Under the pieces are notes generated by a model. The model was given only the letters and a program-made list of their open reading frames with translations. It did not search any database and was not told the DNA's origin. Below are positions 3-13,287 of a stretch of DNA of 13,287 bases, in pieces; positions within the stretch are counted from its first letter, which is position 1; each line of letters opens with the position of its first letter. Origin of the DNA: Hyphomicrobiales bacterium (lineage in GTDB: Bacteria > Pseudomonadota > Alphaproteobacteria > Rhizobiales > Xanthobacteraceae); the NCBI GenBank assembly GCA_017304505.1, contig JAFKKQ010000343.1, forward strand, positions 1 through 13,287, given 5' to 3'. Position numbers and translations under genes: made by a program.

Positions 3-1814
3 AGTCGGGCTCGGCGAAGACAAGGGCGGCGAGCGCCGCTCGAGAGGCTGAGCCTTCGCTCTCGGAGCGGCTCAGGCGCCGGGCTTCAGATCCAGTTCCT
101 GCCAGCGAATGCACGCCACGTTGCGACCGCCGGCCTGATCGTCAACCTGTTGGCGCTGGCGAGTCCTCTCTTCATCATGAACGTTTACGACCGCGTCGTC
201 CCAAACGGCGCGATCCCATCCCTGATCGCTCTTTCGATCGGGATGATAATCGCGATCGTCTTCGATTTCATAATCCGAATTGTCCGCAGCCGCATTATTG
301 ATATGACGGGCAAGAAACTCGACGTCACGTTAGCCTCCCATATCTTTGAGCACGTCATCGCGATCAAAATGGCGCAGCGGCCGACTTCGGTTGGCGTTCT
401 CGCCAATCAAATGCGCGAATTTGATTCCGCCAAAGACTTCTTCACATCCGGGAGCGTCGTTTCCGTAACCGATCTCCTGTTTGCCATTCTGTTTATCGTT
501 CTTCTCTTTGTCATTGCCGGCCCTCTTGCGTGGATACCGATCCTCCTGTTGCCGTTGATGATCGTGGTTGGCTTGGTGTTGCAGTTCCCTCTCGAACGGG
601 CAATGCGCAAGCTCCAGGCAGAGGCCGCAGCCCGTCATGGAGTTCTCGTCGAGTCGCTTGCAGGAATCGAAACGGTTCGGGCGACGGCAGCCGAAGGGCG
701 AATGCAAAAGATCTGGGAACAATCGGTCGCCGCCACGGCTCGCTCCGGCGAAGATGTGCATTTCTGGTCGTCGCTCGCCTTGACCAGCGCGAGCGCGGCT
801 CAACAAATCAACTACATCTGCATGGTTATCGTCGGCGTCTTCCTGATACTCGACGGCCGGCTCTCGGTTGGCGCGCTCGTAGCGGCGACGATGCTGTCCG
901 GTCGAGTGTTGGCCCCGATATCCGGGATCGCCTCTGTCATTAGCCGGGCCGCGCAGACGTTTGTATCGTTCAAGGCGCTCAATCGGATTATGTCGCTCGA
1001 ACGAGAGCGGCCGCCCGAGCGCACCTACATTGCCCGACGTATAGAATTGGGTTCGATCACCTTCGATAACGTCACGTTCCGATATCCCGCCGCAACGACA
1101 AATGCGCTTGAAAAGGTGTCCTTTCGTATCAACCCGGGCGAGCGCGTCGCCGTCATCGGCCGCATCGGATCGGGCAAGACAACAGTCGGCCGCTTGGTGG
1201 CGGGCTTCTATGAACCTGCGGACGGGTGCGTCCTGGTCGACGGTGTCGATATTCGGCAACTCGACCCCGCCGATCTTAGAAGCGGCGTCGGTTTCGTTTT
1301 GCAGGACACCGACCTGTTCTACGGCAAGCTGCGTGACAACATCGCTCTCGGAAAGCCAAGCGCAACCGACGAAGAGATTCTCGCTGCGGCACGGCTCGCC
1401 GGAGTGGAATCGTTTATCGCCTCGCATCCGCTCGGCTACGAAATGATGATTGCCGAGGGCGGGCGCAGCCTTTCGGGAGGCCAGAAACAGGCCATTGGCC
1501 TTGCGCGCACGCTCATCCGCCAGCCAAAGATATTATTCCTCGATGAGCCAACCGCTCATTTCGATACCCGCAGCGAGGGTGAGTTCCTGCATCGGCTGAA
1601 GACCCTTGCAGACGACAACCGCACCGTTCTGATTTCCACTCACCGGCCGTCGCTGCTGTCGTTCGTGAACCGGATACTGCTGTTCGAACAAGGCAAATTA
1701 ATTGCCGACGGTCCACGCGACAAAATCATCACATTGCTTCGCAACAGCAACCAGCAACGAAATCCGCCCTTAACGCCAGCTCAAACGGTGCCCAACGCCA
1801 GTGCGTCACGCTGA
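3..1814 (+). CDS. Type I secretion ABC transporter, permease/ATPase (LapB-like), 5' partial
   Basis: Inner-membrane ABC exporter that powers one-step secretion of a large RTX protein, most likely the adhesin encoded at 4194-8277. The frame stays open to the left window edge; the first start-like codon is TTG at 150, but family-like residues (LPANARHVATAGLIVNLLAL) precede it, so translation probably begins further upstream. Numbering from 150: the transmembrane domain covers about 1-275, with the family motif ASPLFIMNVYDRVVPN at its start. The nucleotide-binding domain covers about 300-530, with Walker A GRIGSGKTT (337-345), Q-loop Q385, signature LSGGQ (441-445), Walker B ILFLDEP with E466, and switch H498. 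No C39-like N-terminal domain is visible; it may lie outside the window or be absent. The gene overlaps the downstream fusion-protein gene by 14 bases, indicating translational coupling. Role and family are secure; substrate assignment is inferred from neighbours. Confidence 0.93.
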   Translation, partial: SRARRRQGRRAPLERLSLRSRSGSGAGLQIQFLPANARHVATAGLIVNLLALASPLFIMNVYDRVVPNGAIPSLIALSIGMIIAIVFDFIIRIVRSRIIDMTGKKLDVTLASHIFEHVIAIKMAQRPTSVGVLANQMREFDSAKDFFTSGSVVSVTDLLFAILFIVLLFVIAGPLAWIPILLLPLMIVVGLVLQFPLERAMRKLQAEAAARHGVLVESLAGIETVRATAAEGRMQKIWEQSVAATARSGEDVHFWSSLALTSASAAQQINYICMVIVGVFLILDGRLSVGALVAATMLSGRVLAPISGIASVISRAAQTFVSFKALNRIMSLERERPPERTYIARRIELGSITFDNVTFRYPAATTNALEKVSFRINPGERVAVIGRIGSGKTTVGRLVAGFYEPADGCVLVDGVDIRQLDPADLRSGVGFVLQDTDLFYGKLRDNIALGKPSATDEEILAAARLAGVESFIASHPLGYEMMIAEGGRSLSGGQKQAIGLARTLIRQPKILFLDEPTAHFDTRSEGEFLHRLKTLADDNRTVLISTHRPSLLSFVNRILLFEQGKLIADGPRDKIITLLRNSNQQRNPPLTPAQTVPNASASR

Positions 1815-2784
1815 TTTCGCTTTTGCCAACGATATCCGAACGGCGGCGGCACTAAAAACGCCGCGAACGTCGCGCCTGCTTTTGCTTGCGACAATAACAA
1901 TGCTCGTGTGCGGTGGCATTTGGGCACATTACGCCGTGCTTGATGAGGTCAAACGCGGCGCCGGTCGTGTTATTCCGTCGCGCCAAATGCAAGTCGTGCA
2001 ATCTCTCGAAGGCGGAATCATCAGAACAATATTCGTTCAGGAAGGCGATACCGTTAAGGAAGGGCAGCCGCTCGTCCAGATCGACGACACCAAATTCAGA
2101 TCCGACTTGGGTGAGCTTCGAGCCAAGCGCGATGCCATCGCGGCGAGTCTGAAGCTGTTGAACCGTGAGGTGGAGCTCACCAGCAATCTATACAAGCAAA
2201 AGGTCGTTCCCGAGATTGAAATGCTGCGCCTGCAACGGCAGGCGGCAGACGTTTCCGGTCAGCTCGCAGTCATTGAAGAAACCATAAAATCCGCCAGGGA
2301 TCGCGTTCAGCGCACCGAACTCAAAGCGCCGGCCTACGGCATCGTGAACAAAATCAACGTGACAACGATCGGCGCTGTTGTGCAACCGGGGGCGGAAATC
2401 ATGGATATCGTGCCTCTTGACGACACCTTACTCGTCGAAGGCCGCATCCGTCCGCAAGATATTGCGTTCATTCGTCCCGGCCAGTCTGCCGTTGTCAAAA
2501 TCACGGCCTACGAATCGACCGTATATGGTTCGTTGAAGGCAAAGGTCGAACGCATCAGCGCTGACACCATTGAAGAGAAGGCCGATAAAAACGACAAGCC
2601 CCAGACCTTCTATCGCGTGATCGTTCGCACCGACAGGAACTATCTTGGAACGCAACAGCACCCCCTACCGATCATCCCGGGGATGATTGCAACTGTTGAA
2701 GTTTTGACGGGGCATAAAACCGTTCTCGATTACCTGATAAAGCCCGCCAGGCTGCTGCGCGACGAAGCGTTAAGAGAGCGCTAA
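1801..2784 (+). CDS. Type I secretion membrane fusion protein, HlyD/LapC family, short coiled coil
   Basis: Periplasmic adaptor that bridges the ABC transporter at 3-1814 to an outer-membrane TolC-type channel. It starts at GTG 1801 inside the end of the transporter gene. One membrane anchor lies at about residues 25-41. The first biotinyl-lipoyl half follows (66-96, with QVVQSLEGGIIRTIFVQEGD), then two helical stretches (about 99-128 and 142-172), then the second lipoyl half (173-206) and the beta-barrel. The C-terminus, PIIPGMIATVEVLTG followed by KTVLDYLIKP and a final EALRER, is the usual HlyD signature region. At 327 residues it is about 100 shorter than the roughly 430-460 typical of LapC-like proteins. 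The missing residues come from both arms of the coiled-coil hairpin while both lipoyl halves are intact. Family is secure. Confidence 0.93.
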   Translation: MRHADFAFANDIRTAAALKTPRTSRLLLLATITMLVCGGIWAHYAVLDEVKRGAGRVIPSRQMQVVQSLEGGIIRTIFVQEGDTVKEGQPLVQIDDTKFRSDLGELRAKRDAIAASLKLLNREVELTSNLYKQKVVPEIEMLRLQRQAADVSGQLAVIEETIKSARDRVQRTELKAPAYGIVNKINVTTIGAVVQPGAEIMDIVPLDDTLLVEGRIRPQDIAFIRPGQSAVVKITAYESTVYGSLKAKVERISADTIEEKADKNDKPQTFYRVIVRTDRNYLGTQQHPLPIIPGMIATVEVLTGHKTVLDYLIKPARLLRDEALRER

Positions 2785-2802
2785 GTACAATTGTCGCGAT
2801 TT

Positions 2803-2817
2803 GAATGAATTTCATTC
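2803..2817. promoter_or_regulatory. Perfect 7-1-7 palindrome, operator-like
   Basis: GAATGAA, a single T, then TTCATTC, located 18 bases after the fusion-protein stop and 160 bases before the protease start. It is AT-rich with no T-tract beyond it, so it resembles a dimeric-regulator site more than a terminator. A loose -35-like TTGCAT follows at about 2820. The regulator is unknown and the function is inferred only from symmetry and position. Confidence 0.3.
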
Positions 2818-2891
2818 TCTTGCATTTCACCAATCGACCAATAAACGCCGCCCAAGTTAGCGCTATTTAACCGTGTCGAAGCACGAGCCGG

Positions 2892-2928
2892 CGTATCTCG
2901 CCCCTTAACAAACAGCCGGGGAGATACG
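2892..2928 (+). promoter_or_regulatory. Leader stem-loop 1 upstream of the LapG-type protease
   Basis: CGTATCT at 2892-2898 pairs with AGATACG at 2922-2928, and CCCC at 2901-2904 pairs with GGGG at 2918-2921. This gives eleven base pairs with a two-base bulge and a 13-base loop. There is no T-run after it, so it is not a standard terminator. It lies upstream of a second hairpin that covers the ribosome binding site, so the two may form a structured 5' leader. Pairing is seen; function is inferred. Confidence 0.4.
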
Positions 2929-2948
2929 GTACAGCCAAGTGCCGATCC

Positions 2949-2972
2949 AACGCCCCGGTCAACAGGGGCGTT
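2949..2972 (+). promoter_or_regulatory. Hairpin sequestering the protease ribosome binding site
   Basis: AACGCCCC (2949-2956) and GGGGCGTT (2965-2972) are perfect complements around an 8-base loop. The purine-rich ribosome binding site (AGGGG, 2964-2968) is almost wholly inside the right arm and the ATG is at 2977, so folding would mask it. This suggests control of protease synthesis at translation, by a trans-acting factor or by conformational switching. The pairing is read directly; the regulatory role is inference. Confidence 0.45.
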
Positions 2973-2976
2973 AGAC

Positions 2977-4110
2977 ATGTTGACCCGTTCGTATGGGCGC
3001 GGAGTTGCGTGCAATATCGCGATCCTCCTGGTCTCGTTTGCGGTTCAATCGGCCGCCGATGAAACCACCTCCGACATAACACCTCGGCAGACCGTCCCAA
3101 GTCTGGCCGCCAGCTTGACATCCGCCAAGCAGCCGCTCGTTTCGACCGGCGGTCTCACCGAAATCGTGTATCCGGCCGCCGGCGAAAACGGGCTGCCGCC
3201 CAGCAAGCCGACACGCGAACCGCGAGCCGCGTGGTCTCCTCCAGCTCGCTTCTTTACGATCAACCAGGTTCTATCGAAACATCAACACAACCCTTCGTCG
3301 AATGCGTCGATGCGGTTAGCTGCTGTCAATCCGACAGATCGGGCGTCCGATTCCACAACGATCAGGATTCCGCCCACCCGCGGCGATGAACCGTTCGGCT
3401 TGTTTACGTTCAAGGCACCGGAAGGGCTGCTTTGGGGTAAATGGCGCAAGGTTAAATCGGATCTCCAGGCGGCGATGCCCGCTCTCTCGCGTTGCCGCAG
3501 CAATCATGACGATTGCACACCAGGCGCCTCTCGATTTGTCGCAATCGTAGACCAGGCAAAGGTAAGCCACGGACGCGCCCGGCTCGAGTTCGTCAACCGG
3601 AAGATCAATCGTGAGATTCGCTATGTCTCCGACATGACCCAATGGGGCGCCCTGGACCGATGGTCGGCGCCGCTGAATGCCGACAAACGGGGCTCGTTCG
3701 ACACTGGCTTGGGGGATTGCGAAGACTACGCAATTGCGAAATACGTTGCGCTCCGCGAGGCCGGCGTGCCCGACAAGAATCTCCGTATCCTATTGGTACG
3801 CGACAACAACGTTCGGATGGATCATGCGGTGCTGGCTGCCCGTGAAAACGGACGCTGGATTATTCTGGACAATCGTCGCTCGGCGCTGGTCGAGGAGGAG
3901 GATACGCGGTTCCTGACGCCGCTGTTCGCCATCGACAACAGCGGCGTAAAATTCTTCGCTGCGCCCTATGCCTTATATAGCTTGGATAGTCAGTTGGTGG
4001 CGTATTCGGCCGAGATCGGCCAGACGATCGCGGTCGGAGCGGAAGAAAACGGCTCCGATATACTGCCGACCTATGCCGGCGGATCGGCCGGGCTGCCGCT
4101 ACTCATGTAA
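2977..4110 (+). CDS. lapG: Periplasmic LapG-type transglutaminase-like cysteine protease (BTLCP)
   Basis: Bacterial transglutaminase-like cysteine proteinase of the LapG family (peptidase family C93). In this family the enzyme releases a surface adhesin by cutting near its N-terminus when c-di-GMP is low. A signal peptide covers about residues 1-27. A low-complexity linker of about 110 residues precedes the catalytic domain (about 138-335). The triad is visible: Cys248 in GLGDCEDYAIAKY, His283 in NVRMDHAVLAA and Asp298 in WIILDNRRS; acidic residues beside the Cys fit the calcium-binding region known in LapG. The 377-residue length exceeds the usual 200-250 because of the N-terminal linker and a C-terminal tail of about 45. 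The ATG has AGGGG eight bases upstream, inside a hairpin. Residues 66-69 read PAAG, the same as the predicted cleavage motif in the adhesin. The gene follows the secretion genes and converges on the adhesin. Confidence 0.93.
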   Translation: MLTRSYGRGVACNIAILLVSFAVQSAADETTSDITPRQTVPSLAASLTSAKQPLVSTGGLTEIVYPAAGENGLPPSKPTREPRAAWSPPARFFTINQVLSKHQHNPSSNASMRLAAVNPTDRASDSTTIRIPPTRGDEPFGLFTFKAPEGLLWGKWRKVKSDLQAAMPALSRCRSNHDDCTPGASRFVAIVDQAKVSHGRARLEFVNRKINREIRYVSDMTQWGALDRWSAPLNADKRGSFDTGLGDCEDYAIAKYVALREAGVPDKNLRILLVRDNNVRMDHAVLAARENGRWIILDNRRSALVEEEDTRFLTPLFAIDNSGVKFFAAPYALYSLDSQLVAYSAEIGQTIAVGAEENGSDILPTYAGGSAGLPLLM

Positions 4111-4193: not shown

Positions 4194-4530
4194 TCAGACA
4201 ATATGGATGTGCGATTGATCGATGGTTCCACCATTCTCGAGAACCGCAAGCTGCACAGGAGCGGAGGCCCCGCCGCTGCCGTCCGCGTCATATAGAAGAG
4301 TATGCGTCGATGTGTTGAAGTGGAAGCGTTCCGCCCCCGATGAGAAGTTGTTGGTCGCATCCGACCCGAACATGCCGGGCGCGCTTGCGTCAGTGCCAGC
4401 CGTAAGCCCGCCGCCGAATGCCGCCGCCAGGATATCGATCGTATCACCCTCGGCCATATTGAAATCGAGGATGTGATCGAGCCCTTCGGTGGGCGCCGTA
4501 AACTTGAAGTGATCCGCGCCCGACCCGCCA
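4194..4530 (-). CDS. Out-of-frame C-terminal RTX and secretion-signal portion of the adhesin
   Basis: This segment encodes about 111 residues starting GGSGADHFKFTAPTEGLDH and ending QSHIHIV. It holds an RTX glycine-rich turn, then the conserved region ILDFNMAEGDTIDIL seen at the C-terminus of type I-secreted RTX proteins, then an uncleaved secretion-signal-like end. It has no convincing start or ribosome binding site of its own (only a TTG at 4556) and is the natural continuation of the long adhesin frame. It is therefore part of the same gene, separated by a one-base shift, not an independent gene. Confidence 0.85.
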
Positions 4531-7500
4531 TGCCAGTATATCGACCTGGCCGTCAAGGCCCGTCAGCGTATCGTTACCGTCTTCACCCAGCAGCGTTGTA
4601 ATCAAACTCGTCGTCTGCAAGCCAAGATCGTCACCAGATGACCCCTGGGTTGTGTGAACATCCGGCGTTAGCGTCACCGAGACCGAAGATGCCTGCGGAT
4701 CACCATCCCCATCCGTGGCAATGATCGGCGTCATGACATCGAACGGATCCACGGCATTTGCCGTATCGAATGTGGCAGGACCGAGAGTGAAGGTCTTCGA
4801 CCCCGTTCCTGTAATTTCGATTGCGCTGAAGGGGTCCGTGGTTGCCGTAACAGTGAAAGTATCGCCCTTATCCATGCCGCTGAGCGTCCATGAACCGTCG
4901 CCGTTAATGGTCGCTGTCGGAGCTGTTCCGCCGGAGCCATTGGTGACGGTCACTATGATCCCGTGCGCAATGCTTTCACCCGAAGGGTCACCGACAAACA
5001 GCAGATCGTTGTCGGCGTTCAACGCTTTGATTGTAAACGACGTCGTGCCGTTGGTTTTCGTCAGTTCCTGAGTGAAGGACGTCACTTCATAGTGGTTGGT
5101 ATAAGTGGTGGTCCCTATGGTATTGCCTGTGCTCTCATTCGTGACGAAATCGAACCGAATGGTCTCGCCGTTACCGATACTCTGTCCCGATCCCACACCG
5201 AAATTCCCGGTGCTCGTGTTGACGGTATTAGTCCCGTTAGCCGTAACCAGAAGATCGTTTGGTGTATCCGGGTCGGTCAACTTGTTGAAACCTACAACGT
5301 TGACGTTTCCTCCGCTCGGGCTTGCTCCTTGAGTGGTGAACTCCGAGCCGTTGAACAGCGTCCCATTGAGGGTGAAATCCCACGTCCCGGTATCCGGATG
5401 GAGAACCTGAGTGAAGGCCAAGTCCGAACCGTCTGCGTCCGAACTGACTCCCTGAACCGTATGGGAATCGACGATGTGATAGAAGAGTTGTTCACCATTC
5501 ATATAGACGTCGTTACCGGCAGCGTCCTTAACGGCATCCCCCTCATGGACGTTGAACACCACGTCTCCGACGCCATCCGCACCGGCATGCGAAGCAAAGT
5601 TCAATGGCCCACTCAAGACGGCGTGGTTCACGTCTTCGCTGAAGATCTGTTCCGGCGTAAACGCGGTCGGAACATCGTCCCGGACCGCCAGATTGACCGC
5701 TCCCGACACATGGTCGCCCGATGTGTCCGTCGCGACCACTTGCAGGCCGTTGATGGTTACATCATTGGTGCCAAGACCCGCCGTTTGCAGCAGGTTGTCG
5801 ATTAACGTCGCCGTCACCGTCGGCGTAACGGAATTTCCGGGCGCAGCCGCGGTATTCGTTAGCGACAAGACGACGAAGTCACCGAGGTCGACCGAACCAA
5901 CGTCCTTGATCAGAGAGCCGATCAACTCTCCCCCATCAAGACGCCACTCGAGATGATACCCAGCCGCAAGACCCGTAATGGTTGGTGCCACCCAGGCCGG
6001 ATCGCCCGTCGGATTGGCGAATGCAACCATAATGTCTTCGCCAGTAGCCGTGAACGTAATGCCAGAGGTCTTCTGATCCGTTTCGCCGCGGCTTGCGGGA
6101 TCTGTGCCCGTTACAACACCGGCGGCCAAATCGGCCGGCACCGGACTTGCGTCGAGCGTCGTATCGAGCGCTGCTTCATTGACCGAAAGGGAAACCGTCC
6201 CCCCGCCGGTCGGCACCGTGTTGGTATTGACGTGGACTGTTACAGTCGCCGTCGAGGTGTCCCCATCCCTGTCCGTGATCGTGTAGGTGAACGTGTCGTC
6301 GCCGACAAACACGCCGGTCGGCGTATAGGTGAAGGTGCCGTTGTCGTTGTAGACAACATCGCCGTGAGCGCCATTCGTAGCCGTGATCGTTCCCGGTGTC
6401 GAATTGGTGGTATCGACTCCGTCGGCGCCGAACACGTCGTTGCCCAGCAATCCGCTTAGAATCGTCTCGCCGGTAATCGGTGAAGCGACCGTATCGTCAT
6501 TCGCCGTCGGAGCGTCGTCCACGATCTGGATCTGGAACGTATCGCTCGCGTCGTCCGCCGGGTTGCCGTCGCTGTCGGCGACCTTCACCGTGAAGCTCTC
6601 GTACGGCGTCAGGTCCGTGTCGTTGTCGACGTTGTGGGCCAGCGTGTAGCTGTAGCTCACCGTCGTGCCGACAATCGAGGTGATCGTCAGCGTGCCGTAG
6701 TCGCCGCTCACCGTCGCGCCCACCGCGACCGCAACGCCGTTGATCGTCACCGTCGAGGCGCCGTCGCCATTGGTGTAGCTGAACGAGCCCGTCGTCGTCT
6801 CCGAGTCCGTCCCCGAGGCCGAACCCGCAGGCAGGCCGTCGTGCGCCGGAAGACCCGCCTCGCTCACCTCCGTGCCAGGCGCGCCGGCCTGCGGAACGCT
6901 CACCGTCGGCGTGTCGTTCGTCCCGTTGATCGTGATCGTCACCGTCGTCGTCGACGGATCGCCGTCATTGTCCGTGATCGTGTAGGTGAACGTGTCCGTC
7001 AGCGTATCGCCCGTGCTCAGCGCCTGGACCGCCGGGTCGGTGTTGTTGAGCGTGTAGACATAGTGGCCATCCGCCCCGATCGTGATCGAGCCGTGGTCGC
7101 CCGTAACGGCGGTGCCCACATCGCCGGCCGCAGCCGACGACGTGTCGCCGCCGGCCTTCACACCCGTCACGCTCGCGCCGTCAGCACCCTGCACGTCGGC
7201 CGTGCCGCCGCCAACGCCCGTGATCACGTTGCCGTCCGCCGTCAGCGCAACGTCCTCCGTCACGCTGTCCGTGTCCGCATTCGCCGTCGGAGCGTCGTCC
7301 ACGATGTCGATCGTCAGTGTCGCCGTTGCCGGATCGCCATTGCTGTCGACGACCCGGACCGCGAAATCCTCATGCGTCGCGTCGCCCGACGTGTTGTCCG
7401 CGAGCGTGTAGGAGTAGCCGTAGCCCGTCCCCGGCGTGCCGGTGATCGTCAGGTCGCCATACTGGCCGTGCACCACGACGCCAGCCACACCCGCGTTGGT

Positions 7501-8277
7501 CACATCGACCTGGTTGCCGTCCTTGTCCGTCACATACAGATGGCCGATCGTATCGCCGCCCGTCGTGATGTTCAGCGAACCCGTCGCCGTCTCGCTCGGA
7601 TCGCTGTTGTTCGTGCCATTGCCGTCGGCGATCTCGCCCGACCCCGCAGGCTCCAGGCCCCGCGTCGGCAGGCCCGCCTCGGAGGCCTCGCTGTTGCCTG
7701 ATGCATCGGGGCGGTCGGGCAATACTTCAATCGTCGGCAGACTATTCGGAGCCTGGCTAAAAAGCGCGGCGGGCTCGATGTTGTGAAACTGAATCGGTGG
7801 CAACTCTTCCGCCGGGAGCAGCGACAGCGGCGTCGGTGTCGACAGCGGATCCACAGATGGATCGTGGAAATCCGCACCCGATGCGGTCGCCGCTCCACCC
7901 GTACCCGCCGCCGGCAAGACCGATTGATCGACCGTTATTGGAAACTGCGCAGCAAATTGCGCACCCGTCAGATCCTGATCCTGACCAACCCCAACAACGA
8001 TGTTCGAAAGAACCCCGCTGGAATCAAAAAATGGCTGAATGATCGCCTGACTTCCATCGGCGAAAATGATGTGAAGCGTTTGATCGGTGTTGTCATGGTA
8101 GAGCGTGATCTGCTCGTTCGCGATTGCAGTAAAATCGACCTTCACGGTCCCGGTGAAGCTCGCATGAAAGACCTCGGACTGCCCGGCTGCCGGCTTCGTG
8201 ATCTTGATAACCTGGACTGGCGAGGCTGCATTGGCAGGAGCCGACTGCGCCTGCGCGACAACGAACGGCCCGTTCAT
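4194..8277 (-). CDS. LapA-type RTX/VCBS adhesin, frameshifted near its C-terminus
   Basis: Large secreted adhesin, probable substrate of the type I system and of the LapG-type protease beside it. Start chosen at ATG 8277, which has GGGGGAGG five bases upstream; an in-frame ATG at 8307 lacks such a site. From 8277: N-terminal retention module (about 20-115, with FTAIANEQITLYH), PAAG at 122-125 followed by GADFHDPSVDPL, a Pro-rich linker to about 190, VCBS/Ig-like repeats (about 220-690, each ending in IVDDAPTAN- or NGTNDTPTV-type linkers with SDGNP or NDGDP motifs), T1SS-143-like repeats (about 700-1205), then RTX-type GEDGNDTLTG. After residue 1248 the frame continues to an unrelated tail ending at 4444, whereas the correct RTX end and secretion signal lie in another frame ending at 4194. 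Merging both gives about 1360 residues. Family assignment is strong; whether the frameshift is real is open. Confidence 0.85.
4528..4536 (-). other. Frameshift point in the adhesin gene
   Basis: Read on the - strand, the codons for Asp-Ile-Leu (last Leu at 4534-4536) are followed by four bases, GCAT, before GGC GGG TCG GGC GCG, which encodes the expected Gly-Gly-Ser-Gly-Ala. One surplus base (or two missing) at 4530-4533 therefore breaks the frame inside the RTX repeat. No long homopolymer is present, so a simple slippage error is not obvious. Confidence 0.8.
6498..7305. repeat. Internal direct repeats in the VCBS part of the adhesin gene
   Basis: A 28-base stretch at 6498-6525 recurs exactly at 7278-7305 (780 bases apart); it codes for the VDDAPTAN-type linker. 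A different 28-base stretch at 6270-6297 recurs at 6969-6996; it codes for the DTFTYTITD motif. Such exact repeats within tandem domains allow recombination that changes domain number. Confidence 0.75.
7903..7914 (-). other. Predicted LapG-type cleavage motif PAAG
   Basis: CCG GCG GCG GGT encodes Pro-Ala-Ala-Gly, residues 122-125 from the ATG at 8277. It directly follows the retention module (FPITVDQSVL) and precedes GADFHDPSVDPL. LapG enzymes cut between the two alanines of T/A/P-A-A-G motifs at about this distance from the N-terminus (about residue 108 in Pseudomonas LapA). Motif, distance and flanks all match; cleavage itself is inferred. Confidence 0.75.
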
Positions 8278-8341
8278 AAAAACCTCCCCCGTGCGTCCGA
8301 GGATCACGATTTGATCTGGAAATTAGCGACTTTAAGAAAAA

Positions 8342-10200: not shown

Positions 10201-11034
10201 TCACCTTCCAATTGACGGAAAAGTGGCCGTACAGTTCACGCCAGCAGGCAGTTCGTGCGTTGGATTAGCCAACAGAAGGCGAACCCCAAACGTGTCGCTG
10301 GCAGCGTCGAGCACCTTGTCGATGACGGACACTGTGGCGGAATAAACGGCTCCCGCCGGCTGACTTGGACGAATCTCTGCCTTCATGCCCTCCTTGATCA
10401 AGGGAAAGCCAACTATCGGCAGGTGGACTTCAACGCGGAGAGGATCGATCTGGGCAATCTTCATGATCTTGGCCTGCTCAAAGACATTCTCTCCCGGCGC
10501 CATAATGCGCTTGGTGACGTAACCATCGATCGGACTAACGATCGTACGCTGAGCCAGGAGGGCAGCAGCGCGCTTCATCTCGAGGACAGCAAACTCCTGA
10601 TCAGTTTCCGCTTGGCGAAGCTGCAGGACAGCCTGCTGCTGCTCGCTCAATGCCTTCTCAAGCTGGGCGGTGGAGGAGATTTGTTTGCCATGCAACTCGG
10701 TCACGCGAGAAGCTTCCTTTTTCAGGAGGTTCGCGCGCTCCCGACCGAGATCTATGATCACAGTCGATTCCGCACGAGCCTTCGCTAGATCCAAAGATGC
10801 CTGCTCAAGATCGGAGCGAAGCCGTGCGACGACCATGCCTTTCGTCACGCGGCTGCCCTGATCTACCAGCAACTCCTCCAGAATGCCGGTCACCGGGCTG
10901 CCGAGCTCGGTCGCGATAAACGGCTCGATGATGCAATCGTGTGGCCTGTCCAGGACAGAGGAGGGATCCGCGGCGGAGGCGGGCACGACGAGCACAGCCA
11001 CCAGTATCATGGCGGCGATTGTAGCCTTTAGCAT
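10201..11034 (-). CDS. Periplasmic HlyD/RND-type adaptor subunit
   Basis: A 277-residue periplasmic adaptor. Signal peptide 1-22 (MLKATIAAMILVAVLVVPAS, cleavage after ASA). The first lipoyl half (about 36-73) contains ELGSPVTGILEELLVDQGSR. A long alpha-helical hairpin (about 75-162) follows, then the second lipoyl half (163-196, SPIDGYVTKRIMAPGENV) and a beta-barrel (197-275). It is short and lacks a clear membrane-proximal domain, so it resembles the small RND-type adaptors. The ATG at 11034 follows the SecA-like stop by 9 bases and has GGGGGGATC just before it, so translation is probably coupled. No RND pump or TolC gene follows; downstream is debris. In context it may join the SecA-like ATPase and the upstream adaptor or peptidase protein in one export machine; that is inference. 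Confidence 0.9.
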   Translation of the reverse strand: MLKATIAAMILVAVLVVPASAADPSSVLDRPHDCIIEPFIATELGSPVTGILEELLVDQGSRVTKGMVVARLRSDLEQASLDLAKARAESTVIIDLGRERANLLKKEASRVTELHGKQISSTAQLEKALSEQQQAVLQLRQAETDQEFAVLEMKRAAALLAQRTIVSPIDGYVTKRIMAPGENVFEQAKIMKIAQIDPLRVEVHLPIVGFPLIKEGMKAEIRPSQPAGAVYSATVSVIDKVLDAASDTFGVRLLLANPTHELPAGVNCTATFPSIGR

Positions 11035-11043
11035 GATCCCCCC

Positions 11044-13023
11044 TTATTCCCCTCGCCCGCTGAACGCGAGCAGATCCTGAAGACTGTCGTCGCCGTGTAG
11101 CAGGCGCTTGCGGATTCCGCCGTGGCGACGCTCGGTGGTCCGCTGAGCCAAACTGAAGAGCATCCGGGCCAGCCAGTCGGGCAAATGCGCACGACGCGTC
11201 GACCATCTATCGAGCAGCCAGCCAAATACGCCACGCACCAGCTCGTCATCGAGGCTGACCATAGCCTGCCCCTCGCCGAGGTCGCCCTGGCGGCCGCTGC
11301 GGCCGAAGAGCTGACGATCAATGCGGCCGGCCTCATGACGCTCGGACGCTATGACAAACAACCCACCGGTTTGGGCAACCCCCGGAGCGAGGCTGATGTC
11401 GGTTCCGCGCCCAGCCATATTCGTAGCCACCGTCACCCGGCCGGGCTGTCCCGCTTGGGCCACGATCTCGGCCTCGGCCCGGTTCTGTCGCGCATTGAGC
11501 ACACTGTGCTTGATACCGGCTTTGTTGAGCAGCTCCGAAATGTGCTCGCTATCCGCCACCGATCGCGTACCGACAAGGACAGGGCGGTCAGCTGTGTGAA
11601 GTTGCGCCACCCGATCCGCGATCGCCTGCCACTTCGCTTGGGAAGTTGGATAGATAAGGTCGCCGTGTATCGTCCGCCGCTGGGGTCGGTTGGTCGGAAT
11701 GCGGACAGTGTCCAATCGGTAGACCGCCCACAATTCACCCGCGACCTCCCGCGCGGTGCCGGTCATCCCCGCCAGCTTCAGATAACGCCTGAAGAAACGC
11801 TGATAGCTGATCCGCGCGAGGGTCTCCTGCCGGCCAGAAATTTCCAGCCCCTCTTTCGCCTCGACCATCTGGTGCAGGCCGCGCTCCCAGGAGCGATCGG
11901 CCATCACTCGCCCCGTATACTCGTCGACGATGCGGACCCGCTCCTCTTCGACAATGTAATGCTTGTCGCGCGTATAGAGGTGCACGGCCGCCAGCGCCTG
12001 ACGTATGATGTCTTCGCGATGGCCCGGAGCATTCCACACGCCTCCGTAGCGGTCAGTGAGGCGCTTGGCATGCGCACGACCGAGATCGGTCAGGTCAATG
12101 CGGCGCTCGTGTTCGCTGACCAAATAGTCTCGGCTGGCATGCATTCGCCGGGCCGCGTCCAGCGCCTGGCGGTAGACTCGCTCTTGATCACCCGTACCCC
12201 GGCCTCCCGAGATAATCAGTGGTGTGCGCGCTTCGTCGACGAGCACGCTATCGGCCTCGTCGACAATCGCGAAGCACAGGCCACGCATTACAAGCCGGGC
12301 GGCGCGCGGGTCTGCGCGGTGCAACCCTTCGATCTTGAGGTGGAGAGCCCGGCTTTCCTGCTGCAGCAGGAGGCGGTCCTTCAGATAGTCGAAAACCACC
12401 TGCTTGTTCGTGCAATAGGTAATCGAGCAACCATAGGCATGGCGTCGCTCGGGCGGGCTCATCCCCTCCAAGATCGTGCCAACGCTGAGGCCCAATGCGT
12501 CATAGAGCGGCTTCATCCAGGCGGCATCGCGCGCGGCCAGGAAGTCGTTGACCGTGATGATGTGAACCGGAATGCCGGCGAGCGCAGCCGTCGCCGCGGG
12601 TAGCGTTGCGGTGAGCGTTTTCCCTTCACCCGTCTCCATCTCTGCGACTTTGCCGCGCATCATTGCCCAGCCGCCAAGCAACTGGACGTCGAAATGACTC
12701 ATCCCAAGCTTACGGCTCGCCGTTTCGCGGATCACCGCGAAGGCTCTGGCTACCAAATCGGGTCGCAAACCATTGCGGTGCAAATCGCGACGCAGAACGG
12801 CCACGGCTTCATCAAGTTCTTTCGGCGCAAGCGATTCGAGATCAGCGGATGCCTTGGCGACCTGCCGCAGAAAGCCCCGATCAAGGTTATAACCGCCAAA
12901 ACGTTGGAAAAAGGCGCCGCACATGGCGCTGGCGGTGCGGTCCAGCCAGCTTTCCCGCTCTTCCTCCCGCTCGGGATAAGTACCTGCCGCAATACCGGGC
13001 CGGAGCAACACCGCTTCAGACAT
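11044..13023 (-). CDS. Short SecA-like ATPase lacking the wing, two-helix finger and zinc tail
   Basis: SecA-family motor ATPase, 659 residues against about 900 for housekeeping SecA. Visible: Walker A METGEGKT (129-136), VDEADSVLVDEARTPLIISG (254-273), the preprotein cross-linking region (about 220-375), GLHQMVEAKEG (382-392), AGMTGTA (418-424), and motor domain 2 with LVGTRSVADSEHI and ATNMAGRGTDI (533-543) plus FGRSGRQGD (573-581). The last part, AQRTTERRHGGIRKRLLHGD, matches the start of the helical scaffold, but the protein stops 15 residues later. The helical wing, two-helix finger and CxCxSG zinc motif that bind SecY, SecB and membrane are therefore missing. The ATG overlaps the upstream stop by 8 bases; the adaptor gene follows 9 bases after the stop. 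It is a paralogue with a specialised role, not the essential secA. Function beyond ATP-driven translocation is unknown. Confidence 0.92.
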   Translation of the reverse strand: MSEAVLLRPGIAAGTYPEREEERESWLDRTASAMCGAFFQRFGGYNLDRGFLRQVAKASADLESLAPKELDEAVAVLRRDLHRNGLRPDLVARAFAVIRETASRKLGMSHFDVQLLGGWAMMRGKVAEMETGEGKTLTATLPAATAALAGIPVHIITVNDFLAARDAAWMKPLYDALGLSVGTILEGMSPPERRHAYGCSITYCTNKQVVFDYLKDRLLLQQESRALHLKIEGLHRADPRAARLVMRGLCFAIVDEADSVLVDEARTPLIISGGRGTGDQERVYRQALDAARRMHASRDYLVSEHERRIDLTDLGRAHAKRLTDRYGGVWNAPGHREDIIRQALAAVHLYTRDKHYIVEEERVRIVDEYTGRVMADRSWERGLHQMVEAKEGLEISGRQETLARISYQRFFRRYLKLAGMTGTAREVAGELWAVYRLDTVRIPTNRPQRRTIHGDLIYPTSQAKWQAIADRVAQLHTADRPVLVGTRSVADSEHISELLNKAGIKHSVLNARQNRAEAEIVAQAGQPGRVTVATNMAGRGTDISLAPGVAQTGGLFVIASERHEAGRIDRQLFGRSGRQGDLGEGQAMVSLDDELVRGVFGWLLDRWSTRRAHLPDWLARMLFSLAQRTTERRHGGIRKRLLHGDDSLQDLLAFSGRGE

Positions 13024-13287
13024 CGAACAGCCTCAGGAAGACTTGACGGATCCAGCGATAGAGCTGGAAGCCGATCGGCTCGGTGCCATGATCAAAACGA
13101 ACCTTGACGCGCTGGCCAATGAACGCGCGGTCGTCAACAGCCGGAAGTGCGATCTCATATTCGAAATAGCGATCGAGGGCCGTAACGCCTCGGCTGTCGC
13201 GCGGATCGATGGAGATGCTGCCTCCACCCATCGTACCGAGGGCCGGTGTGGGGAGTGCCCTTAATCCCTCCGGCACTTCGCGGACAA
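13016..13287 (-). CDS. C-terminus of an HlyD-like / M50-peptidase-associated protein, 5' partial
   Basis: The final 90 or so residues of a protein whose frame runs past the right window edge; the GTG at 13276 is internal, since Val-Arg-Glu codons precede it in frame. Visible residues include LPTPALGTMGGGSISIDPRD, ALDRYFEYEIALP, and IGQRVKVRFDHGTEPIGFQ before LYRWIRQVFLRLFDV. This resembles the C-terminal beta-barrel end of adaptor-like proteins that are often fused to or encoded with membrane-embedded M50 zinc metallopeptidases. The HExxH catalytic region would be upstream and cannot be seen here, so peptidase activity is not shown. The stop overlaps the start of the SecA-like gene by 8 bases, placing both in one operon. 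Confidence 0.7.
   Translation of the reverse strand, partial: VREVPEGLRALPTPALGTMGGGSISIDPRDSRGVTALDRYFEYEIALPAVDDRAFIGQRVKVRFDHGTEPIGFQLYRWIRQVFLRLFDV

Follow-up and report, generated by a model that had tools for sequence, protein, structure and literature searches.

LEPR-XLL giant proteins as probable cargo of an operon combining an M50-HlyD fusion, a short SecA-like ATPase and a periplasmic adaptor

The export of the largest bacterial proteins is largely an open question. Type 1 secretion proceeds through HlyB-HlyD-TolC, and giant adhesins are exported through LapBCE. The subject here is a three-gene operon of a Hyphomicrobiales bacterium, located on a contig of 13,287 bp that was analysed over its entire length (C311, hereafter the window) and that comes from a fragmented genome of 3.08 Mb in 550 contigs; the operon codes for the end of an M50-HlyD fusion protein, a short SecA-like ATPase and a periplasmic adaptor. 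Its closest described counterpart is the conserved locus presented in the main text of Kamneva, Poudel and Ward 2015 (PMC4452313), in which secondary SecA_DEAD proteins that have no SecA_SW, or only a small piece of this domain, are accompanied by GAF-HlyD, Peptidase_M50-HlyD and HlyD/biotin-lipoyl proteins and sometimes by OEP. SecA was proposed there as the ATPase and M50, the similarity to which was termed rather weak, as the pore, and the role of the locus was called completely unknown; the words 'giant' and 'LEPR' are absent from that main text, and its account of the locus names no cargo. The operon is also present in the non-pathogenic laboratory strain Methylobacterium extorquens AM1 (MexAM1_META1p2399–2402), where the same paper found most of it with no or almost no expression during exponential growth.

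The window's operon belongs to this locus type, since a SecA_DEAD protein without SecA_SW stands beside M50-HlyD and HlyD genes in the window, in its nearest relative and in 80 named loci (the best 80 among 583 loci located through M50). A GAF-HlyD gene of the source genome lies on another contig, C145. The preliminary description of the window had spoken of an uncharacterised export system; in the sense of 'unseen' that word has to be withdrawn, as both the locus and the same idea of a machine already stand in the 2015 paper, as represented by its main text, and the machine is therefore a rediscovery. Both accounts share the genes and the assignment of the ATPase role to SecA and of the pore to M50; the differences lie in the LEPR-XLL giants as putative cargo, a code of signal types, loci without an intact short SecA, and intact M50 motifs. 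The cargo and the signal code are apparently new within the literature searched, where the LEPR-XLL motif received only two mentions, both in passing. Judged from the sequences, the operon probably codes for those parts of a type-1-like, ABC-free exporter that reside in the inner membrane and the periplasm, and the LEPR-XLL giants are very likely to be its cargo. With type 1 secretion it shares HlyD-type adaptors, a TolC-type outer-membrane protein in some loci, a very long, cysteine-poor putative cargo and, in one giant, RTX repeats; it differs in that no ABC exporter was found within the operon, which has the M50 fusion and the short SecA instead, and in that the conserved motif is N-terminal.

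The operon in the window consists of the following genes:

13016 to 13287, minus strand: C-terminal 89 residues of a PqqD-M50-HlyD fusion, cut by the contig end, where its open reading frame (ORF, 13016 to 13285) is still open; about residues 628–716 in the numbering of the 716-residue M50-HlyD protein of the nearest relative (L051).
11044 to 13023, minus strand: short SecA-like ATPase of 659 residues with SecA_DEAD (6e-104), SecA P-loop and PP_bind domains.
10201 to 11034, minus strand: periplasmic adaptor of 277 residues, matching RND_mfp (TIGR01730, over cut-off) and HlyD_D23, with an N-terminus that resembles a signal peptide when read by eye.

An overlap of 8 bases (13016–13023) joins the ORFs of the M50 piece and the SecA-like protein, and a gap of 9 bases (11035–11043) precedes that of the adaptor. 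Both the arrangement of the three minus-strand genes and the identities given to the SecA-family ATPase and the HlyD/RND-type adaptor in the preliminary description are confirmed by these coordinates and domain matches.

The SecA-like protein aligns to B. subtilis SecA over positions 30–604 only, and residues 42–659 of its model match B. subtilis SecA at about 14–612 and E. coli SecA at about 13–661 (39–50% identity to the SecA structures). With the SecA domain boundaries placed where we take them to be, the modelled protein stops in the first scaffold helix and is without the wing, the two-helix finger and the C-terminal tail, so that the earlier label 'finger-less' was well chosen. Both motor domains, the substrate-binding (preprotein-binding) domain and the Walker and DEAD motifs are shared with the SecA/SecA2 translocases; the early stop sets it apart from them, as do scores under the cut-offs of all eight NCBIfam SecA/SecA2 models matched, and Pfam gave no SecA_SW match in the 659 residues. 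Among 32 aligned SecA-like proteins, the window's included, GEGKT (Walker A) is kept in 29, DE[AV]D in all 32, and GRGTDI and GRxxRQGD in 26 each. A second SecA frame, of full length (935 residues), is found elsewhere in the source genome.

The 89-residue piece has no Pfam match; it matches the C-terminus of the nearest relative's M50-HlyD protein (L051 5746–7896, HExxH at 210) with an E value of 1e-53 and the M50 alignment at positions 628–717 with 3.9e-24. The L051 protein contains HlyD_3, PqqD and, below cut-off, Peptidase_M50 domains; its Pfam M50 score is 21.1 (cut-off 27.2), that of L067 is 16.9, and that of L272 is 29.2 and thus above the cut-off. The PqqD-like N-terminal domain occupies residues 12–105 of the M50 model, and Pfam PqqD is barely over its cut-off in one of two proteins. 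HExxH and the second zinc motif, N-x-x-P-x4-D, are intact in 28/28 M50 relatives and lie in membrane helices of the model, and the suspicion that the upstream gene belongs to the M50 family was thus correct. The window's own piece does not span the catalytic region, for which C145 of the same genome shows HELGH: there a GAF-HlyD gene (87% to the nearest relative) adjoins an M50 N-terminus with this motif, and part of a giant gene (72% to the nearest relative over 2,760 positions) is also present. We infer that C145 and the window belong to one locus.

The preliminary description had let its reading stand or fall with the recurrence of the three-gene order outside this strain; the order does recur, and widely, and the reading survives this check. 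SecA follows M50 within 1.5 kb in 74/78 named loci with room, GAF-HlyD precedes it within 1.5 kb in 75/77, an adaptor follows SecA in 55/68, and the order GAF-HlyD, M50-HlyD, short SecA, adaptor is complete in 51/66. One ABC exporter used as query found matches in 7/80 named loci, none of them within the four-gene block. A gene for a small DUF3467 protein (about 100 residues) lies at most 1.2 kb before GAF-HlyD in 23/74 named loci with room, and such genes also occur in L058, L061, L065, L068, L071 and L082.

In many relatives ORFs of more than 1,000 residues adjoin the operon, and one of these has at its start a LEPR-XLL domain (NF012209), which scores 24.8 bits against a cut-off of 17. Across 398 Pseudomonadota genomes, LEPR-XLL over cut-off was found in 85, the M50 fusion in 93, both in 71 and neither in 291 (Fisher 3e-44, ancestry ignored). 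M50 proteins were assigned to class A when their score with alignment A1 exceeded 500 bits, and to a sister class B at about 260–370 bits. LEPR-XLL is present in 38/38 class A genomes, a count that leaves out the window's own genome, where M50 is split into two partial pieces and LEPR gave no match. In a further sample of 151 genomes, at least five of which overlap with the earlier ones, 13 had both and 122 neither; M50 was found in 8/9 new genomes with LEPR at 22 bits or more, and LEPR in 8/9 new class A genomes.

The two genes are also physically linked. For this comparison 74 LEPR matches were used, namely 67 at 20.2 bits or more, minus four (G307 and G374, where no M50 gene was found, G280:C227 and the second G398 match), plus nine weaker ones, plus G080 and G006. 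A contig is shared with an M50 gene by 42 of them, the giant being at most 10 kb away in 37/42 and at most 16 kb away in 40/42, the latter limit having been chosen after the gaps were seen. The extent of a giant was taken as motif position plus open frame, except that for G080, where the frame is interrupted, the distance is that to the giant's end; positions for G006 and G080 are rounded. The open frame reaches at least 2,000 codons in 50 of the 67 matches of 20.2 bits or more, with a maximum of 19,427, and is below 1,000 in 13. In the nearest relative the LEPR ORF ends after 1,493 codons with the next ORF directly after it (L337 6235, 6238), which is either a real break or a sequencing error. 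Instead of the small processed peptide that the preliminary description had suggested as cargo, a giant LEPR-XLL protein beside the operon probably has this role; no gene for a small peptide stood out beside M50 or SecA in the gene lists of relatives, where very short ORFs were not specifically searched for.

The type of LEPR signal follows the class of the exporter. Linked class A pairs carry an S-type signal resembling LE[PED]R.LLS[AG][DE] (S-[AG]-[DE]) in 25/26 cases, the remaining one being D-type, and linked class B pairs a D-type signal resembling LEPR..[LFY]D[AG][AT] (D-[AG]-[AT]) in 14/14 (Fisher 6e-10, ancestry again ignored). The S-type count includes LLNSD (G239) and LLFSAT (G281); LEDR and LENR matches were typed by the residues after the last two hydrophobic letters of the motif, three LEPR matches are of neither type (G146, G187:C24, G245:C416), and the classes of G113:C17 and G187:C310 were taken from the M50 score. 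D-type matches were also met in three genomes first labelled as class A only (G105, G183, G229), all of which additionally carry class B; in G105 the class B M50 gene lies about 4 kb from the D-type motif, and the second G398 match is likewise D-type, with a class B M50 gene about 7 kb away. In the further sample 11/11 matches in class A genomes are S-type, counting G579 with its M50 split over two contig ends and the motif SGG, and 2/2 in class-B-only genomes are D-type. Many M50 fusion matches of both classes, often together with several giants, occur in G113, G105, G229, G183, G159 and G213; G229 has up to eight, some of them partial.

The giants themselves are poor in cysteine, with 0.47 per 1000 residues in 37 putative giants and 10.8 in 142 SecA and GAF-HlyD ORFs; these 37 are long ORFs upstream of GAF-HlyD or beside the operon, the N-terminus being mostly outside view. 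An [IVLM]xW motif lies within the last 60 residues of 21/37 and in 4.1% of internal windows, and was set aside as a C-terminal export motif, having been chosen from the same sequences and being found in its narrower form in only 4/30. An early stretch of the DUF3467 proteins (IKW or VVW, in three proteins) resembles it. The 13 N-termini before LEPR that were inspected have net charges of -2 to +9, positive in 12, and are unlike Sec signals because they contain no hydrophobic core, the highest 15-residue mean being 0.77.

These N-termini bear on the best surviving alternative, according to which the short SecA is an accessory, SecA2-like SecA feeding SecYEG, the giants pass the inner membrane through Sec, and the M50, HlyD and OEP proteins serve only the periplasm and the outer membrane. 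The match of the motor and preprotein-binding parts to SecA structures would fit this, and the housekeeping SecA could serve those loci in which no short SecA is recognisable; the missing wing, finger and C-terminal tail, the lack of a hydrophobic signal core in all 13 giants and the position of the SecA gene inside an M50/HlyD operon speak against it, and it is considered unlikely. Less probable still, and very much so, is that M50 acts as a regulatory membrane protease that senses through HlyD and GAF and controls the giant genes, not as a transport component. M50 proteases are mostly known from regulated proteolysis, and the partner of M50 does contain a GAF domain, but HlyD is fused to both the M50 and the GAF protein, the locus also contains an adaptor of its own and in some cases an OEP gene, and the code sits in the giant's own N-terminus. 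That the cargo is a two-partner TpsA protein or another neighbour, with LEPR giants as bystanders, is very improbable: TpsB genes near the operon in 11/139 loci, all among L051–L090 (L060, L062–L064, L066–L069, L071–L073), and a TpsA-type N-terminal domain in 2/2 large neighbours scanned (L096 and L091) would favour it, but the 80 named loci, with their conserved operon order, showed no recognisable TpsB, and the LEPR linkage and code hold in both classes. Proteins of about 3,000–3,800 residues follow in several of the TpsB loci, and the L091 genome has no TpsB in the locus.

The reading of the operon as an ABC-free exporter of LEPR-XLL giants has to be weighed against a number of observations. 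LEPR occurs without M50 in 14/85 genomes and M50 without LEPR in 22/93, and in the further sample 8 genomes have LEPR only and 8 M50 only, with three of the five class-B-only genomes there having no LEPR match. The LEPR profile is only 24 residues long and exceeded its cut-off in 1/14 control genomes, it found no match in the window's own fragmented genome, the M50 scoring took two candidates per genome, and both Fisher p values ignore shared ancestry. The code has one linked exception (G366). OEP/TolC-type genes were recognised in 11/19 loci of one set, in only 13/40 of another and in 3/80 named loci, and in two Sulfuritalea loci (L161, L162) an ABC gene of exporter length follows about 1.5 kb behind the adaptor. 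A search of 14 class B loci (L255–L257, L260–L264, L266–L268, L271–L273) gave no intact short SecA, only one weak match (1.4e-4). Class A systems usually possess the SecA, but none was found within about 20 kb in the class A loci L258 (G426) and L259 (G281), and the SecA relative in class A loci L265 (G109, 765 bits) and L269 (G101, 786 bits) is without Walker A and DEAD motifs. Confidence in the exporter was lowered slightly because of the two class A loci without SecA and because in the further sample class B goes together with LEPR less often.

Because such loci exist, SecA is not needed in every system of this kind; the export-type operon with a finger-less SecA-like motor stands as first described, but the motor is not universal. 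The relatives in L265 (12742–14694) and L269 (3946–5811), which lie in the same operon type, are apparent dead copies retained in place. The linked giants of G426, G281 and G109 remain S-type despite the missing or dead SecA, and this suggests that the code is read by M50 or an adaptor and not by SecA. Where no intact SecA is present, another source of energy may be used, or SecA may be an add-on, for example for longer cargo.

From the conserved operon, the intact M50 motifs, the ATPase motifs of most SecA-like relatives, the absent SecY-engaging parts, the linkage and the code, all read directly in the sequences, we infer how recognition, cleavage, threading by SecA and an OEP route might be combined. 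The mostly basic, non-hydrophobic N-terminus with LEPR-XLL would direct a giant to this exporter instead of Sec, and would perhaps be recognised by the PqqD/RRE-like domain at the M50 N-terminus or by the M50 site. The M50 protease, with its intact catalytic motifs, would cut near the LEPR motif; that it cuts the giants at all is moderately favoured. The truncated SecA, a motor with a substrate clamp, would, where present, thread the giant chain, unfolded and almost devoid of cysteine, into the membrane complex formed by M50 and HlyD, and its working without SecY is favoured only slightly. The link from this complex to a TolC-type outer-membrane channel would be made by GAF-HlyD, the soluble HlyD adaptor and the HlyD portion of the M50 protein. 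For the picture as a whole, namely a separate ABC-free secretion system for giant proteins in which an intramembrane M50 protease, fused to an adaptor and a PqqD-like domain that binds peptides, reads and cuts LEPR-XLL, chains of up to about 19,000 residues are driven by a finger-less SecA and independently of SecY through a conduit of M50, HlyD and TolC, and S and D signals keep two co-resident exporter classes apart, the odds are about even.

Elsewhere in the window, a type 1 secretion cluster on the plus strand (3–4107) codes for an LssB/LapB-type ABC exporter, truncated by the start of the contig, an HlyD-type adaptor and a C93 cysteine protease that resembles LapG and scores under the cut-off of the LapG model. 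The ABC gene lies about 8 kb from the three-gene operon on the opposite strand. A BapA/VCBS-type adhesin gene follows on the minus strand (4444–8307); its last part seemingly continues in another frame at 4194–4556, and this frame break (4194–8307) is either real or due to the assembly. OEP was not among the families matched by the eight window proteins scanned.

The co-variation of cargo, signal and exporter joins the locus of 2015 and the LEPR motif into one testable system. If the proposed mode of action is true, a SecA without finger and wing would be an example of the Sec motor being put to new use independently of the Sec channel.

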